Assembly: GCA_012719135.1 (NCBI GenBank)
Contig: JAAYAW010000063.1
Span: 1 to 64,000 of the forward strand
Source of the DNA: Chloroflexota bacterium
GTDB taxonomy: Bacteria > Chloroflexota > Anaerolineae > UBA1429
Direction: 5' to 3'
DNA length: 64,000 nt
Under the pieces are notes generated by a model. The model was not told the DNA's origin. It searched no databases and saw only the letters and a list, made by a program, of their open reading frames with translations. Both the position numbers and the translations under genes were made by a program. This document shows, in pieces, positions 26,867-33,059 of the stretch. Within the stretch, counting starts at the first letter, position 1. Every line of letters begins with the position of its first letter.

Positions 26867-27655
26867 GTGACGGAGGATACCTCGAGTCAGGGGAGGCCAC
26901 GAGCATCGGCTAGGGAGGTGTTCGGAGAGCGTGCGGCGTATTATGTGACGAGCACGGCCCACACCGATGCACAGGTGCTTGGCCGGCTGGTGGATCTGAG
27001 CGGGCTGTCGCCGGATATGTCCGTCCTCGATATTGGAACGGGCACCGGTCACACGGCGCTGGCCCTGGCTCCTCACGCCGGAACAGTCATCGGGCTGGAT
27101 CCGACTCCCGAGATGCTGGCGGAGGCGGAGGCCCTGCGGCGTGAGCGCGGGTACGACAACGTCTCCTGGATGCTTGGCGACGTCGCTGACCTGCCCTGGG
27201 CGGCCAACTCCTTTCATGTGGTAGCCTGTCGTCGTGCCGCGCACCACTTTCTCGATATCGAACGGGCGTTGGGAGAGATGTGCCGAGTGCTCCGGCGGGG
27301 CGGCCGCCTGATGATAGACGACCGTACTGTGCCCAATGATCCGGATCTGGACGTCCTCCTTAACCAGCTGGATTGGCTCCACGATCACTCGCATGTGCGC
27401 GATTACAGCGCGGACGAGTGGCGCGCGCTCTGTGAACGAGCGGGGCTGCACGTGGAGCGCGTGGAGGGCTACACGAGGCACAGACACCTTTCCTCACTGA
27501 CCGAGGGTGTATCGACGGAAGACGTCGCCGAGATTCGCCGGCTGCTCGCGGCGCTGTCACCGGAGCAGGAGGGGCAACTGGGGCTGGAGCGGCGGGCGGA
27601 CGGGCTCTGGTTTGACCACTACTACCTGATTCTCTCGGCTCGCCGGATCTCCTAG
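26867..27655 (+). CDS. SAM-dependent methyltransferase, UbiE/COQ5-like
   Basis: 262 residues from a GTG start directly after the stop of the preceding gene. Motif I VLDIGTGTGHTALALAPHA, then VIGLDPTPEMLAEA, motif II around GDVADLPWAANSF and motif III LRRGGRLMIDD. The motif order fits C- or O-methyltransferases of small molecules; the gene is not next to quinone biosynthesis genes. The N-terminal 30 residues are hydrophilic. Confidence 0.87.
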   Translation: MTEDTSSQGRPRASAREVFGERAAYYVTSTAHTDAQVLGRLVDLSGLSPDMSVLDIGTGTGHTALALAPHAGTVIGLDPTPEMLAEAEALRRERGYDNVSWMLGDVADLPWAANSFHVVACRRAAHHFLDIERALGEMCRVLRRGGRLMIDDRTVPNDPDLDVLLNQLDWLHDHSHVRDYSADEWRALCERAGLHVERVEGYTRHRHLSSLTEGVSTEDVAEIRRLLAALSPEQEGQLGLERRADGLWFDHYYLILSARRIS

Positions 27656-27694
27656 ATAGCGGCTGATGATTCGCGATTTGGTTCGCCGGGCCTA

Positions 27695-27723
27695 TTGACA
27701 ACGGCGCGCGCGTGTGCTACTGT
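27695..27723 (+). promoter_or_regulatory. Promoter of the exporter leader
   Basis: Consensus TTGACA, 17-base spacer, TACTGT. It would start a leader transcript near 27730, about 245 bases upstream of the first ABC gene. Confidence 0.6.
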
Positions 27724-27756
27724 GGCATTTGTTCAGTTGTTCTGGAGGTATTCTGC

Positions 27757-27843
27757 ATGGTCTTCCACTGTGATCGCATCCGAATCCTGGGCTTGGGCGC
27801 CGCGCGTGTGGTGGCGCTGACCTTGGGTGGAGTGCGCCTATAG
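27757..27843 (+). CDS. 28-residue leader peptide upstream of the ABC exporter
   Basis: ATG at 27757 with GGAGG eight bases upstream, 28 codons, TAG at 27841. The peptide begins MVFHCDRIRILGLGAARV and ends LTLGGVRL. It has no known homologue I can name. It lies between a strong promoter and an intrinsic terminator (27870-27906) that precede the ABC exporter genes, the arrangement of a translated attenuator leader. It may be a regulatory, not a functional, peptide. Confidence 0.6.
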   Translation: MVFHCDRIRILGLGAARVVALTLGGVRL

Positions 27844-27844
27844 C

Positions 27845-27896
27845 GCGGAGTACCCTTCATAGGGACCACAGCGACGGGCCGCCCACCGGACTCCGT
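27845..27896 (+). promoter_or_regulatory. Possible antiterminator pairing in the leader
   Basis: GCGGAGT (27845-27851) can pair with ACTCCGT (27890-27896): six Watson-Crick pairs plus one G-U. The second strand overlaps the 3' arm of the terminator, so the two structures exclude each other. A second upstream copy, GTGGAGT (27827-27833), inside the last leader codons, can pair with the same bases. The pairing is short and needs a folding check. Confidence 0.4.
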
Positions 27897-27907
27897 CGCT
27901 TTTTTTG
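27870..27907 (+). terminator. Leader terminator of the ABC exporter operon
   Basis: AGCGACGG (27870-27877) and CCGTCGCT (27893-27900) form an 8-base stem with a 15-base loop, ending in a run of seven T (27900-27906). It stands 26 bases after the leader stop and 67 bases before the exporter start, so transcription of the exporter must pass it. Confidence 0.8.
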
Positions 27908-27918
27908 CGCCTCTGCGC

Positions 27919-27950
27919 GGCCACGGGGTCACCCTGGCCGCTTTGTCTTT
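27919..27950 (+). terminator. Second hairpin in the exporter leader
   Basis: GGCCA (27919-27923) with TGGCC (27935-27939) and an inner GGGT/ACCC pair, followed by CTTTGTCTTT. It may be a back-up terminator or shield the start region of the exporter. Confidence 0.45.
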
Positions 27951-27973
27951 CTCAGCATCATTAGGGGTGCGTT

Positions 27974-29725
27974 ATGAACAGCCAATCTCGTCTGCGGGCG
28001 CAGGCCCGCTTACTCGCCCGATACGTTGCTCCTCGGTGGCCCGTCGCCGCGGTCCTGTCCTTTGTGCTGCTGGCCTCAATCGCGCTACAGCTGGTGAGCC
28101 CGCAGATCATCAAGCGGTTCATCGACGCGGCGCAGAGCCAGGCGGACCCCGGGCAGCTCGTCAATGCGGCCGTGCTCTTTCTGGGAGTCGGTCTGGTCGT
28201 TCAACTACTGCGGCTGGTGACCACCTACCTCTCCACCGATCTGGGATTCCGGACGACGAACGATCTGCGCGCCGACCTAGCGCGTCATCTGCTTGGGCTG
28301 GATATGACCTTTCACAAGGAGCGGACCCCTGGGGAGTTGATCGAGCGGATCGATGGGGACGTGACGGCCCTCTCGAACTTTTTCACCCAGTTCGTTGTGC
28401 GCGTGTTGGGCAGCATGGTCCTGATCGTTGGCGTGCTCGCGATGCTGATCCGTGAGGAGTGGCATATGGGCCTGGCGATGGCGGGCTTTGCGGTCGCGGC
28501 CCTGGCGCTCTTGGTGAGATACGGGGGCGTGGCGGTGGCCGATTCGGCGGCAGAGCGCGAAGCGAACGCCGAGCTCTATGGCTTTGTCGAGGAGAGACTC
28601 GCGGGCATCGATGATATCCGCTCGAATGGTGGCGTAGGGTACACGCTGCGCCGGTACTATGAGGCGCTTCGCCGGCTTTACTGGGCCGCCATAACGGCAT
28701 GGAAGAAACGGCTGATCGTGATCCGGATCGCAGTGGCCATGTGGGGCGTGGGCTTTACCCTCGCGCTGGCGTTGGGAATGACCTCTTTCCTGCGCGGCCT
28801 TCTGACGATCGGGGGCGTGTATGTGCTGCTGCACTACACGGAGATGCTGCTGGACCCGATCGAGCGCATATCGGATCAACTCCAGGATCTTCAGCGGGCC
28901 GCGGCGGGCGTTCAGCGCATCACAGAGTTGTTCGAGCTGGCTCCAGGGATCCGAGGCGAGGGGCGAGATGCCCTGGCCGAGGGGCCACTGCCCATCGGCT
29001 TTGACAGCGTGAGCTTTGCCTATGAGGACGGAGAGCCTGTGCTGGACGGCGTGTCCTTTACGCTCAAGGCCGGACGCACGCTGGGTCTGCTGGGGCGTAC
29101 CGGGAGCGGGAAAACAACACTCACACGGTTGCTCTTTAGGCTGTATGACCCGTCAAGCGGTACCATCCGGCTTGGTGATACCGATCTCACGACGATGGAG
29201 CCAGAGTACCTTCGCCGCCGCGTGGCCATGGTCACGCAGGATGTACAGCTCTTTCGGGCTTCGGTGCGAGATAACCTGACCTTCTTTGACGCACAGCGAT
29301 CCGATGAGGAGATCATACAGGTGATTCGCGAGATCGGCCTGGATGATTGGTACGACTCCCTGCCCAACGGACTGGATACGGAGCTGGCGCCCGGCGGCGG
29401 CGACCTGTCAGCTGGCCAGGCCCAGTTGCTGGCTTTTGCCCGGGTGTTTCTCTCGGCGCCTTCCGTCGTTGTTCTGGACGAGCCGTCATCGCGCCTGGAT
29501 CCCGCCACGGAGAGGTTGCTGGAGCGCGCCATGACGCGCCTGCTCCAAGGTAGAACAGGCATCATCATTGCCCATCGCCTGGACACCGTTCAGCGGGTGG
29601 ACGACATCATGATCATCGAAGAGGGACGCGTGGCCGAGTACGGGCCCAGGCCCGAACTGGTCCGCGATCCGAACTCCCGGTTCTCCTCATTGTTGAGGAC
29701 TGGCCTCCAGGAGGCGTTTGCGTGA
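27974..29725 (+). CDS. ABC exporter half-transporter, subunit with complete Walker B
   Basis: 583 residues: six-helix exporter domain (about 1-320) then ATPase domain. Walker A LLGRTGSGKTTL (near 372), signature LSAGQ (near 477, non-canonical second Gly to Ala), Walker B VVVLDEPSSRLD with catalytic Glu, and IIIAHR H-loop. With the next gene it forms a heterodimer: this Walker A/Glu works with the partner's LSGGQ as the competent ATP site. Weak ribosome site (AGGGG). Likely exports drugs, peptides or lipids; cargo unknown. A promoter, leader ORF and terminator precede it. Confidence 0.93.
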   Translation: MNSQSRLRAQARLLARYVAPRWPVAAVLSFVLLASIALQLVSPQIIKRFIDAAQSQADPGQLVNAAVLFLGVGLVVQLLRLVTTYLSTDLGFRTTNDLRADLARHLLGLDMTFHKERTPGELIERIDGDVTALSNFFTQFVVRVLGSMVLIVGVLAMLIREEWHMGLAMAGFAVAALALLVRYGGVAVADSAAEREANAELYGFVEERLAGIDDIRSNGGVGYTLRRYYEALRRLYWAAITAWKKRLIVIRIAVAMWGVGFTLALALGMTSFLRGLLTIGGVYVLLHYTEMLLDPIERISDQLQDLQRAAAGVQRITELFELAPGIRGEGRDALAEGPLPIGFDSVSFAYEDGEPVLDGVSFTLKAGRTLGLLGRTGSGKTTLTRLLFRLYDPSSGTIRLGDTDLTTMEPEYLRRRVAMVTQDVQLFRASVRDNLTFFDAQRSDEEIIQVIREIGLDDWYDSLPNGLDTELAPGGGDLSAGQAQLLAFARVFLSAPSVVVLDEPSSRLDPATERLLERAMTRLLQGRTGIIIAHRLDTVQRVDDIMIIEEGRVAEYGPRPELVRDPNSRFSSLLRTGLQEAFA

Positions 29726-31566
29726 ACAAGCTGACCAAATACACACTCTCTTTGATTCGATACAGGCCCTGGTTGTTCCTGTCCAACATCGTGCTCTGGG
29801 GGGGCTTTCACCTCATGCCCGTGGCGGGTGGTGTGGTGATTCGGGCCATCCTGGACCAACTCGCGGGGCCGGTTCCGGCAGGGGCCAACTTGTGGATTCT
29901 TGTGGCCGTCTATGCCGGAATAGAGCTGGGGCGGTTTCTCTGCTTTTCCCGTGGCTTTGATATCTTTATCGAGTTCTGGTTCATACTTGAGACGCTCCTG
30001 CGCAAGAACTTGCTCGAGTGGGTGCTGACGGCGAAGGGACCTCGGGTCTTTGACGAGTCCTCGGGTGCGGCCGTAACCCGTTTCCGCGATGACGTGGGCG
30101 AGGTGACGCACTGGTTTGAGGTGCTGGAGGATATGCTGGGCATCGTCGTTTTTGCGATTGTTGCGCTGGCGATCATGTTCAGCATACATGCCAAGATGAC
30201 CCTCGTGGTTCTGGCGCCGCTGGTGGCGATGGTATACGGCGGTATGCGCATGAGTGAGGTGATTCGCCGGTACCGGCGAGCCAATCGAGAGGCCACCAGC
30301 CGTGTTACGGGCTTTATCGGCGAAGTCTTTGGCGCCGCTCAAGCCGTCAAAGTGGCCTCGGCCGAGGATGCGGTGACCCGGCACTTTCGCGACCTGAACG
30401 AGGTTCGCCGCAAGGCGGCCGTGAAGGACTCGATGATCACCGAGCTATACTATGCCCTGACGGGTAACCTGATCGATATCACGATCAGCATCGTGCTCTT
30501 TCTGGGAGCCAGCGCGATGACCGTCGGCGAGTTCACGGTTGGTGATTTTGCGCTGTTCGTCACCTATCTTTCGCGGATGACCTGGTATCTGCGTTACTTT
30601 GGCAACATGATCGCCCAACACCGGCGTGTGGGAGTCTCCTTCGATCGGCTGGACACCTTCCTGCGCGACGCACCAGAAGGGCAGATCGTCAAGCATGGGC
30701 CCATCTATGTGCAAGAGGATATGCCTCCGGTGCCCGATCCGCGCTTTGCCTCTCGAGCCGTGCTGGATCGGCTTGAGGTCAGGGGGCTTACCTGCCGTTA
30801 CCCCGGCACGGATAGAGGCGTCGAGGACGTGACCTTTGACGTGGCCAAGGGAGAACTGGTGGTCATCACCGGTCGCATTGGGGCAGGCAAGACTACCCTT
30901 CTCAGGGGCATGTTGGGCCTCTTGCCCGTAGATGGTGGCGCCGTGGTGTGGAACGGGCAGCCTGTGGAGGATCCGGCCACGTTCTTTGTGCCACCGGTGA
31001 GTGCCTACACGGCTCAGGTGCCGCGGCTGTTCTCCGAGACCCTTCGAGATAACATCCTTTCTGGGGTGCAGGCCACTGAAGAAGAGCTGGCGGCTGCCAT
31101 AAGGCGGGCTGTGCTGGAGCCTGATATCGCCGAACTGGACCACGGGCTGGCCACGCCGGTGGGCAACAGGGGCGTCAAGCTGTCCGGTGGCCAGGTGCAG
31201 CGCGCCGCGGCCGCACGGATGTTTGTGCGCGAGCCGCAGTTGATGGTGTTTGATGACCTCTCCAGCGCTCTGGACGTGGAGACAGAGCGGCTTCTGTGGG
31301 AGCGCATGGAGGAGGTGCAGGGGGCCACCTGTCTGGTGGTGAGCCACCGTCGCGAGGTGCTGCGGCGGGCACACAAGATCATCGTGCTGAAGGACGGCCA
31401 TGTGGATGGCGTCGGCACACTGGAGGAGTTGCTGGCCAACAACGAAGAGATGGGTGCCCTGTACCATGCCTACGACACCGTGTCTGAGGAGGGGCTGAGC
31501 GCGTACACGGCCAGCCAGGCGGATGTGCCTCTGGCCGAGCCGGCACCGGTGGCCGGCAACCGATAG
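29722..31566 (+). CDS. ABC exporter half-transporter, subunit with degenerate ATP site
   Basis: 614 residues, starting GTG within the previous stop (GTGA). Six-helix domain (about 1-330), then ATPase: Walker A ITGRIGAGKTTL (near 383), signature LSGGQVQRAAAAR, Walker B MVFDDLSSALD where Asp replaces the catalytic Glu, H-loop VSHRRE. Asp at this place plus the partner's LSAGQ make the second ATP site degenerate, as in BmrCD and TM287/288 heterodimers. The ATPase is followed by a 40-residue hydrophilic tail. A strong terminator ends the operon. Confidence 0.93.
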   Translation: MNKLTKYTLSLIRYRPWLFLSNIVLWGGFHLMPVAGGVVIRAILDQLAGPVPAGANLWILVAVYAGIELGRFLCFSRGFDIFIEFWFILETLLRKNLLEWVLTAKGPRVFDESSGAAVTRFRDDVGEVTHWFEVLEDMLGIVVFAIVALAIMFSIHAKMTLVVLAPLVAMVYGGMRMSEVIRRYRRANREATSRVTGFIGEVFGAAQAVKVASAEDAVTRHFRDLNEVRRKAAVKDSMITELYYALTGNLIDITISIVLFLGASAMTVGEFTVGDFALFVTYLSRMTWYLRYFGNMIAQHRRVGVSFDRLDTFLRDAPEGQIVKHGPIYVQEDMPPVPDPRFASRAVLDRLEVRGLTCRYPGTDRGVEDVTFDVAKGELVVITGRIGAGKTTLLRGMLGLLPVDGGAVVWNGQPVEDPATFFVPPVSAYTAQVPRLFSETLRDNILSGVQATEEELAAAIRRAVLEPDIAELDHGLATPVGNRGVKLSGGQVQRAAAARMFVREPQLMVFDDLSSALDVETERLLWERMEEVQGATCLVVSHRREVLRRAHKIIVLKDGHVDGVGTLEELLANNEEMGALYHAYDTVSEEGLSAYTASQADVPLAEPAPVAGNR

Positions 31567-31629: not shown

Positions 31630-32433
31630 GTGCCTGATGACGAGAGCGTGTTCTCCAGACTGCAATATGAGACCAGCGCAAACCTCCGCATCCGCGCGCG
31701 GATGCATCAACACTACAGTACCAACCCCCAGGGGTGGGCGGGCTGGGTCTGGGAGAGGATGGCCATCCGGCCGCGGATGGCCATCCTGGAGATAGGCTGC
31801 GGTGATGGTGCCCTCTGGCGCGCACACGCTCAAGGCCTACCCGCAGGCTGCTCTATCCTGCTCACCGATCTATCGGCCGGGATGGCCTCTGCCGCGTTCG
31901 GGACGCTGGCGGGCGAGCTGCTATCCGTGGCCGTCGCAGATGCCGTGGCACTGCCCTGCTCCAGCGAGAGCCTGGACCTAGTCATCGCCAATCATATGCT
32001 CTATCATGTGCCCGATCGTGCAGCGGCGCTCCGCGAGATCCAGCGGGTGCTCAGGCCAGGCGGGAGGCTCTGCGCTACCACCGTCGGGGTCGAGCACATG
32101 CGGGAGATGCATCACTGGCTGATTGCAGCCTGCGGGCGCCCTCTGACGCCGGCGATGCTCCATCTCCCGAGCTTTACGCTCCAGTCGGGGGCAGCAGAGC
32201 TCTCGCGCTGTTTCGCTGACGTTACCAGAGAGGACTATCCCGATAGTCTGTGTGTGCCCGATGTGGACCCGGTGCTCGACTATATGCGATCGATGTGGTC
32301 CGCGCTGATGGGGCAGGAAGAGACTCGGCGTCTCAAAGAGACGCTGCGTCGTGAACTGGCCGAGCAAGGGGCCATTCGGATTCACAAGGAGAGCGGCATG
32401 CTCGTGGCGTTCAAGGGTGGACGTGGCGCCTAG
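31630..32433 (+). CDS. SAM-dependent methyltransferase
   Basis: 267 residues, GTG start with GAGAGGAAG upstream. Motif I MAILEIGCGDGALWR, acidic loop LLTDLSAGMASAAFG, then VADAVALPCSSESLDLVIAN and VLRPGGRLCATT. About 45 N-terminal residues with HQHYSTNPQGWAGWVWERM precede the fold, as in several Chloroflexota-type small-molecule methyltransferases. Substrate unknown. It lies behind the exporter terminator and may have its own weak promoter. Confidence 0.87.
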   Translation: MPDDESVFSRLQYETSANLRIRARMHQHYSTNPQGWAGWVWERMAIRPRMAILEIGCGDGALWRAHAQGLPAGCSILLTDLSAGMASAAFGTLAGELLSVAVADAVALPCSSESLDLVIANHMLYHVPDRAAALREIQRVLRPGGRLCATTVGVEHMREMHHWLIAACGRPLTPAMLHLPSFTLQSGAAELSRCFADVTREDYPDSLCVPDVDPVLDYMRSMWSALMGQEETRRLKETLRRELAEQGAIRIHKESGMLVAFKGGRGA

Positions 32434-32498
32434 ATGCACCCTATTGTCGATTGCAGCGTAGAGTACGTAGGATCAAGTGACCGCGTACAGGGGGGAGC

Positions 32499-33059
32499 AT
32501 GAACACCAAAGGACAGGTTGTGGTCGGGATCGTACTCGTCGTGGCTGGGCTGTTGGCCTTTCTGGATACCCTCTTGGGCATCAGCCTTTGGGCGTTTGCT
32601 TTTCCGTTGGCTCTGATCGCGCTCGGCGCCTGGGTTATCTTGCGCCCCAGCAGGGTTGCGGCGGGCACGCGTATCTCGCAGCAGATCTTTGGCGATGTGG
32701 TTCGCAAGGGTCCGGTCGCGGATGAGGACGTCTTTGTGTTGCTGGGCGATGTCAAGATCGATTGGCGGGGGGCACCCTGGCCTGCTGAGCCCGTTCATCT
32801 GAATGTCACGGGCCTTCTGGGTGATGTCCGCATCCGGGTGCCGTCCGATGTGGCCGTGTCTCTGGAATCCCGCGCCGCGATCAGCTCCTTGCGCCTGGAT
32901 GGCCAGAAACAGGATGCGTTCTTTGCACCGGTGGAGCTGTGCAGCGCCGGCTTTGCGGAATCGGATCAGCGCCTGTATGTGACGGTGGCTCACCTCCTGG
33001 GTGACGTGCGCATCGAGCGCGATGCTGCGAGCCAGGAATCTGCACGGCCCTGGGATTGA
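32499..33059 (+). CDS. LiaF-like membrane protein
   Basis: 186 residues. Two N-terminal helices (VVVGIVLVVAGLLAFLDTLL and SLWAFAFPLALIALGAWVIL) precede a beta-repeat domain with the recurring motif (L)LGDV+I (LLGDVKIDWRG, GLLGDVRIRVP, LLGDVRIERD), the mark of the LiaF/YvqF C-terminal domain. LiaF inhibits the LiaRS cell-envelope stress system in Bacillus; no LiaR or LiaS is adjacent here, so the partner is elsewhere or the role differs. ATG has GGGGAG upstream. Confidence 0.82.
   Translation: MNTKGQVVVGIVLVVAGLLAFLDTLLGISLWAFAFPLALIALGAWVILRPSRVAAGTRISQQIFGDVVRKGPVADEDVFVLLGDVKIDWRGAPWPAEPVHLNVTGLLGDVRIRVPSDVAVSLESRAAISSLRLDGQKQDAFFAPVELCSAGFAESDQRLYVTVAHLLGDVRIERDAASQESARPWD

Follow-up and report, generated by a model that had tools for sequence, protein, structure and literature searches.

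A putative ribosome-mediated transcription attenuator ahead of ABC exporter genes and its RNA family in Chloroflexota

Promoter, leader, terminator and exporter genes

The window analysed here is a 64,000-nt stretch of contig JAAYAW010000063.1 from the 2.6-Mb genome of a Chloroflexota bacterium. At 27695–27973 of its forward strand, directly ahead of two genes for an ATP-binding cassette (ABC) exporter, lie a promoter, a 28-codon leader open reading frame (ORF) and an intrinsic terminator. A first-pass annotation had interpreted these parts as a ribosome-mediated transcription attenuator before a drug exporter, like that of bmrBCD. That reading holds up in outline; the antiterminator that it named and the conserved leader codons that it expected do not. 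On our analysis, 27695–27906 is very probably such an attenuator, which would allow expression of the exporter genes only when leader translation is disturbed. This interpretation is carried by the parts themselves, by their conservation, by covariation of three alternative helices in relatives and by the kinds of gene downstream. Below, L001 denotes the window copy, and L002 and L003 are loci from a different genus.

27695–27723, + strand: sigma-70-type promoter, TTGACA-17-TACTGT, with an extended −10 (TGC), from sequence; spacing and TG recur as TTGxxx-17-TxxxxT, with TG ahead of the −10, in L002–L005 and L007
27744–27748, + strand: leader Shine–Dalgarno sequence GGAGG, from sequence
27747–27756, + strand: segment 1 (GGTATTCTGC), from the minimum-free-energy fold of the untranslated leader, its position backed by covariation in relatives
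27757–27843, + strand: leader ORF, 28 codons plus stop, in the same place in 8/8 family orthologs
27775–27783, + strand: leader codons 7–9, Arg-Ile-Arg, a +X+ macrolide-stall-like motif; R[ILMV]R starts at codons 6–10 in 4/6 family leaders
27824–27841, + strand: segment 2, conserved RNA element TGGGTGGAGTGCGCCTAT, partner of segment 3
27845–27854, + strand: GCGGAGTACC, with which segment 1 pairs best when the RNA is untranslated; it holds the antiterminator strand of the first-pass annotation
27870–27906, + strand: intrinsic terminator (segments 3 and 4 plus U-tract), from sequence and a covariance-model match
27876–27887, + strand: segment 3, the end of the terminator 5′ arm plus loop, GGGCCGCCCACC, partner of 27826–27839
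27974–29725, + strand: ABC exporter subunit 1, 583 aa; Pfam ABC_membrane and ABC_tran; best solved relatives ABCB1 and TM287/288
29722–31566, + strand: ABC exporter subunit 2, 614 aa, its start overlapping the end of subunit 1; matches include BmrC/YheI (PDB 8t1p)
27917–27940, + strand: a second, weaker terminator-like hairpin

Direct reading of the sequence confirmed, base for base, every feature that the first-pass annotation had claimed. The promoter, from which transcription would start, has its −35 hexamer at 27695–27700 and its −10 hexamer at 27718–27723, with a 17-nt spacer ending in TGC. The leader (ATG at 27757, stop codon TAG at 27841–27843) would encode the peptide MVFHCDRIRILGLGAARVVALTLGGVRL. 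The terminator, at which transcription would end, starts about 26 nt past the leader stop and before the first exporter gene, has arms AGCGACGG (27870–27877) and CCGTCGCT (27893–27900) followed by seven T at 27900–27906, and is conserved in relatives. A consensus scanner reported neither promoter nor terminator there, owing to its cut-offs. Taken in the window alone, the leader folding energy is not above chance (z −1.3), and the terminator, one GC-rich hairpin, is unremarkable (z −1.2). Tandem terminator-like hairpins before the exporter also occur in L002–L005, L071, L088 and L094.

Each exporter subunit consists of an ABC transmembrane region and an ATPase, with ABCB1-type and TM287/288-type exporters as closest solved relatives. 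Two adjacent half transporters of this kind point to a heterodimeric ABC exporter. The exporter is followed directly, on the same strand, by genes for a class I methyltransferase and for a LiaF-like protein (31630–33059).

Conservation and the attenuator RNA family

Orthologs of the exporter were found in 89 of the 396 genomes of the class, and in 53 of the 152 genomes of another family, f28. A leader ORF with a Shine–Dalgarno sequence, then a terminator, precedes the gene in 28 of 90 ortholog upstream regions from the class, some few of which may be chance cases. The arrangement is present in all eight window-family orthologs that have upstream sequence (8/8) and in none of 18 paralogous ABC exporters taken as a control, and therefore is not a chance occurrence. 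The upstream sequence of L031 is the same as that of L004.

Within the window's family, the 18-nt block at 27824–27841 is identical in L001 and in L002 and L003 (0/1000 shuffles), yet is read there in another frame. The end of the leader reads LGGVRL* in L001 and L004, GWSAPIC* in L002 and L003 and RSAPVDR* elsewhere. Across the leaders, RSAP is the prevailing reading of the element (72 of about 89). The reading is VRL, MRL or the like in L001, L004, L094, L162, L165, L177, L234, L245, L250, L265, L282, L304 and L308, and in L252 and L259 the element lies behind the stop codon. Because the same element is kept in different frames, it is the RNA, rather than a C-terminal peptide, that is conserved. 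Among the tests that the first-pass annotation had set for conservation in related genomes, the terminator, the leader ORF and a terminator/antiterminator pairing recur in relatives; the leader codons as such do not, the leader-end element being conserved as nucleotides.

Comparative analysis of the exporter leaders of f28 revealed how this element may act. Those leaders all begin with AAAGAAAGGAGCGCRCTTCAAATG, end with CGAAGTGCGCC and have a small hairpin across the stop codon; in their terminators, ACGGTGCACTT makes up the 5′ arm and loop. The end element has two complementary partners, the leader start (pairing 1:2) and the terminator 5′ arm plus loop (pairing 2:3). Four segments can be laid out in relatives: segment 1 beside the leader Shine–Dalgarno sequence, segment 2 at the leader end, segment 3 in the terminator 5′ arm plus loop, and segment 4. 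In an alignment of 29 such leaders (A1), pairing 1:2 has 95.8% standard pairs and 7 double changes (0/500 shuffles), pairing 2:3 has 92.0% standard pairs and 5 double changes (18/500 shuffles), and the terminator (3:4) covaries strongly. Individual sequences illustrate the pattern, with matching letters across three segments in L172 (GAAGCGCGCC, GCGCGCTTC and GGCGCGCC) and one matching pair in L211 (GTAGCGCGCC and CGCGCTAC).

The same signal was detected in a larger set of 98 homologs. There, segment 2 fits its own segments 1 and 3 better than swapped ones (0/2000 permutations each), whereas in the 1:3 control for relatedness own segments are not better than swapped ones (1461/2000). Pairing 2:3 accumulates 43 double-change cells, at pairs that lie outside the alignment model. 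Covariation with segment 1 is also seen at the third, silent position of the segment 2 Arg codon (UA 22, CG 22, AU 6, GC 2), in an alignment that had been fitted to pairing 1:2. Compensatory change across relatives thus backs a mutually exclusive antiterminator, and by its sequences the relatives' RNA is a classical 1:2/2:3/3:4 attenuator whose three structures would form in cells.

A DNA pattern for the strict form matched only 5 genomes, in each case before the exporter (control, 0), so that a covariance model was needed to see the family; the 9-mer GAGTGCGCC alone shows no genomic enrichment (47, with 46 for the reversed control). A model built from the 29 exporter leaders (R1) gave about 105 matches at E values up to 0.01, where about four are expected by chance, in 71 of the 396 class genomes and with at most four per genome. 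Of 39 matches read first, 26 lie ahead of genes for a second type of ABC exporter and 7 ahead of acetyltransferase genes (five identified by Pfam and two from the gene layout); 2 stand before RsgA, one each before a RIO1-like kinase and a TetA(P)-like pump, and 2 fall at contig ends. Forty further matches comprise 19 before GNAT acetyltransferases, 6 before RsgA, 4 before RIO1, 2 before ABC-F-like proteins and 2 before exporters, the rest being 5 before genes only weakly similar to ABC ATPases, 1 before an ABC-2 permease and 1 at a contig end. A second model from 68 sequences (R2; 158 double-change cells, 0/500 shuffles) adds matches in the window's own family before RIO1, two ABC-F genes (behind L257 and L260), a Tet-like pump and exporters, and scores the orthologous exporter leaders L005, L007 and L008 at 41, 33 and 26 bits. 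The attenuator family is, on these model matches, widespread in the window's class of Chloroflexota, and most of the genes that follow the matches concern resistance or the ribosome. Rfam gave no match at gathering score in the window and 16 related loci, and among openly licensed PMC papers we found nothing on Chloroflexota leader attenuators.

The window copy itself aligns to the covariance model over 27694–27905 through segment 2 and the terminator (18.0 bits, local E 6.5e-5 in 701 nt). We take it as a divergent family member, by homology rather than by score.

Several other leaders came to light in these comparisons. A second candidate attenuator in the window's genome (L256; G000 contig C88, 19103–19234, minus strand) stands before a RIO1-like kinase gene; it matches weakly (E 0.026) and has a 2:3 pairing of 9 bp, GAATGCGCC:GGTGCATTC. 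Leaders before the second exporter type (L209, L213–L215, L217, L220, L222 and L223) have an inner stretch resembling TIF.TPDAVG.LPS in common, with conservation through much of the peptide. In another Chloroflexota family, L132, L137 and L141 have a third leader type, M.I..HIGTR..GG...TCVGVCS..., with a terminator GCCCCGCATGT...ACATG(C/T)GGGGC before the exporter. Most Paenibacillus exporter orthologs (L032–L048 and L060) are preceded by a conserved leader peptide of another kind, M V N ... V I M Y D S S stop, an arrest-peptide candidate with no comparable terminator by eye.

Alternative pairings and the proposed mechanism

Fold predictions for the window copy yield alternative structures that depend on the position of the ribosome. 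In untranslated RNA reaching 27870, segment 1 (GGTATTCTGC, 27747–27756) is predicted to pair with GCGGAGTACC (27845–27854), and this pairing is retained alongside the terminator in the complete untranslated transcript; segment 1 can also pair, weakly, with the leader end. For nascent RNA reaching 27888 with the ribosome's 3′ edge at about 27811–27823, GGTGG/GTG/GCCT (27826–27839) is predicted to pair with GGGCCGCCCACC (27876–27887), with an additional CGC–GCG helix around a small inner hairpin (11.9 expected pairs). With the edge at 27793, nearer the Arg-Ile-Arg codons, another leader segment is predicted to capture the same 5′ arm and loop, and a ribosome at the stop would leave the terminator alone. 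The likely antiterminator in the window, judging from these models, is 27826–27839 with 27876–27887.

This differs from the pairing that the first-pass annotation had named. GCGGAGT at 27845–27851 is indeed complementary, with one G–T pair, to ACTCCGT at 27890–27896, and a second copy, GTGGAGT, lies in the final leader codons. However, the segment is without a counterpart in L004, L002 and L003, and it would pair with the terminator loop and 3′ arm, sequences that would not emerge from RNA polymerase until after the U-tract; for both reasons this antiterminator is less likely. The antiterminator of the relatives is built from the 5′ arm and loop.

In the mechanism we propose, RNA that carries no ribosome would pair segment 1, on the Shine–Dalgarno side, with the leader-end region, blocking segment 2 and allowing the terminator to form. 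During normal translation, the ribosome at the stop codon would cover segment 2 (27824–27841) with the same outcome. A drug that holds the ribosome early, most simply at Arg-Ile-Arg, would free segment 2 and the adjoining leader RNA, which could then capture the emerging terminator 5′ arm and loop (27876–27887), and transcription would read through into the exporter.

The Arg-Ile-Arg codons are in frame, early and ahead of the pairing segment. R-L-R is a signature of macrolide-resistance leader peptides (PMC6310831), and related motifs recur in the window's family: R-I-R at codons 7–9 in the window and 6–8 in L004, R-M-R at 9–11 in L002 and L003, and R-L-R at 9–11 in L005. R-[I/L/M]-R near codons 6–11 is the only peptide-level signal that we found in the family. 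Its presence in 4/6 family leaders was equalled in about 1 of 100,000 residue shuffles (3/5 without L004, 10 of 100,000), for a motif chosen after seeing the data, and +X+ is not enriched in leaders outside the window family. We regard it as a lead to test.

Several results weigh against an attenuator of this kind at L001. Its covariance-model match is local only, with segment 1 unaligned, and is absent from the output of the genome-wide scan. The window's 2:3 pairing, compared with a shuffled segment 3, reaches p 0.083, and six family members combined p 0.10; pairing 1:2 is not above chance in L001, L002 and L004 (p 0.14 for segment 1 of the window), and overall the alternative pairings in the window alone are not above chance (p 0.08–0.28). 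Equilibrium folding with ribosome footprints, a check that the first-pass annotation had suggested, gave a mixed outcome. A clean switch is predicted only in L002 and L003, with terminator probability mostly near 0 for a ribosome at codons 3–21 and 0.8–1.0 from codon 24 on. In most members the terminator wins, and the complete L001 transcript prefers it for nearly all ribosome positions. As equilibrium favours the terminator, antitermination would have to be kinetic.

Other explanations of the locus were weighed. The terminator sits between two same-strand genes and could merely end the upstream methyltransferase operon (26867–27655), with the exporter promoter further downstream and the short ORF as noise; ORFs bearing a Shine–Dalgarno sequence are common, and the hairpin's z of −1.2 is unremarkable. 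We consider this very unlikely, since there is a promoter between the methyltransferase and the terminator, relatives have the promoter and leader together with the conserved element and the terminator, as one unit, ahead of their exporter genes, and a mere operon end gives no reason for 1:2 and 2:3 covariation. Still less probable is control of the exporter by a drug-independent metabolic attenuator or riboswitch that senses an amino acid or ligand: its 1:2/2:3/3:4 layout would be that of the trp and his attenuators, but the leaders have no single-codon run, the downstream genes are exporters, acetyltransferases, ABC-F, Tet-like efflux and ribosome factors rather than biosynthetic genes, and no Rfam riboswitch matched.

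An arrest peptide, whose specific C-terminal residues (RSAP in most relatives, GGVRL in L001) would halt the ribosome alone or with a ligand and would themselves be under selection, is unlikely, although it ranks ahead of the other two. It would account for the RSAP frame in 72 of about 89 leaders and for LGGVRL*, which L001 and L004 share with no codon changes but synonymous ones. Against this, the reading frame of these nucleotides changes within one genus (L162, L165 and L177) and between L001 and L002, and the element follows the stop in L259 and L252. The motif's Ser codon is almost always AGT or AGC and its Ala codon GCG, matching what RNA pairing requires, and a ribosome stalled on the element would mask segment 2 and favour termination. 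On account of the frame changes, we rejected RSAP/VRL arrest as the main driver.

Comparison with known systems

What is known of ribosome-mediated attenuation at resistance genes comes mostly from individual Firmicutes cases. In Chloroflexota, the same RNA architecture, whose three helices all show compensatory changes, stands before many resistance and ribosome-maintenance genes. Probably, one cis-acting RNA module that reads ribosome progress, and no particular peptide, before at least six unrelated gene classes (ABC exporters, GNAT acetyltransferases, ABC-F, Tet-like efflux pumps, RsgA and RIO1-like kinase) makes up a translation-stress regulon without a transcription factor, in which leader codons such as R-X-R would set the drug sensed. 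The recurring attenuator offers a sequence handle for drug-responsive genes in genomes without a known regulator, its presence before RsgA and RIO1-like kinases suggests that both belong to the Chloroflexota drug response, and the separate evolution of pairing element and drug-sensing codons becomes testable.

Amino-acid attenuators of the trp and his type read ribosome position through mutually exclusive 1:2, 2:3 and 3:4 pairings. Unlike them, the Chloroflexota leaders are without a run of regulatory codons and without biosynthetic genes. The bmrB leader of B. subtilis bmrBCD (Reilman 2014, PMC4191407) is alike in its proposed signal, slowed translation with no particular peptide; it differs in its length (162 nt, against 28 codons in the window) and in having its terminator inside the bmrB ORF rather than about 26 nt after the stop. 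It is not described as a multi-gene family, and bmrBCD and the window exporters are distant homologs. The rli80-hflXr attenuator of Listeria (Duval 2018, PMC6310831) uses a short leader, an R-L-R macrolide-stall motif and alternative RNA structures to control a ribosome-rescue gene by transcription attenuation. The window-family leaders with R-[I/L/M]-R at codons 6–11 resemble it, whereas its 14-codon leader and its gene are different and no RNA element is known in common. The VmlR and MsrD leaders (PMC9226507, PMC10314930) are reported to attenuate ABC-F resistance factors, and ABC-F genes likewise lie behind L257 and L260, but they are other leaders, from Bacillus and Streptococcus. By its sequence features, the window attenuator belongs to the mechanism class of bmrBCD (PMC4191407) and hflXr (PMC6310831); what appears new is an RNA family spread over several Chloroflexota gene classes with a frame-tolerant RNA element and, likely, a split between the drug-sensing codon motif and the pairing element.
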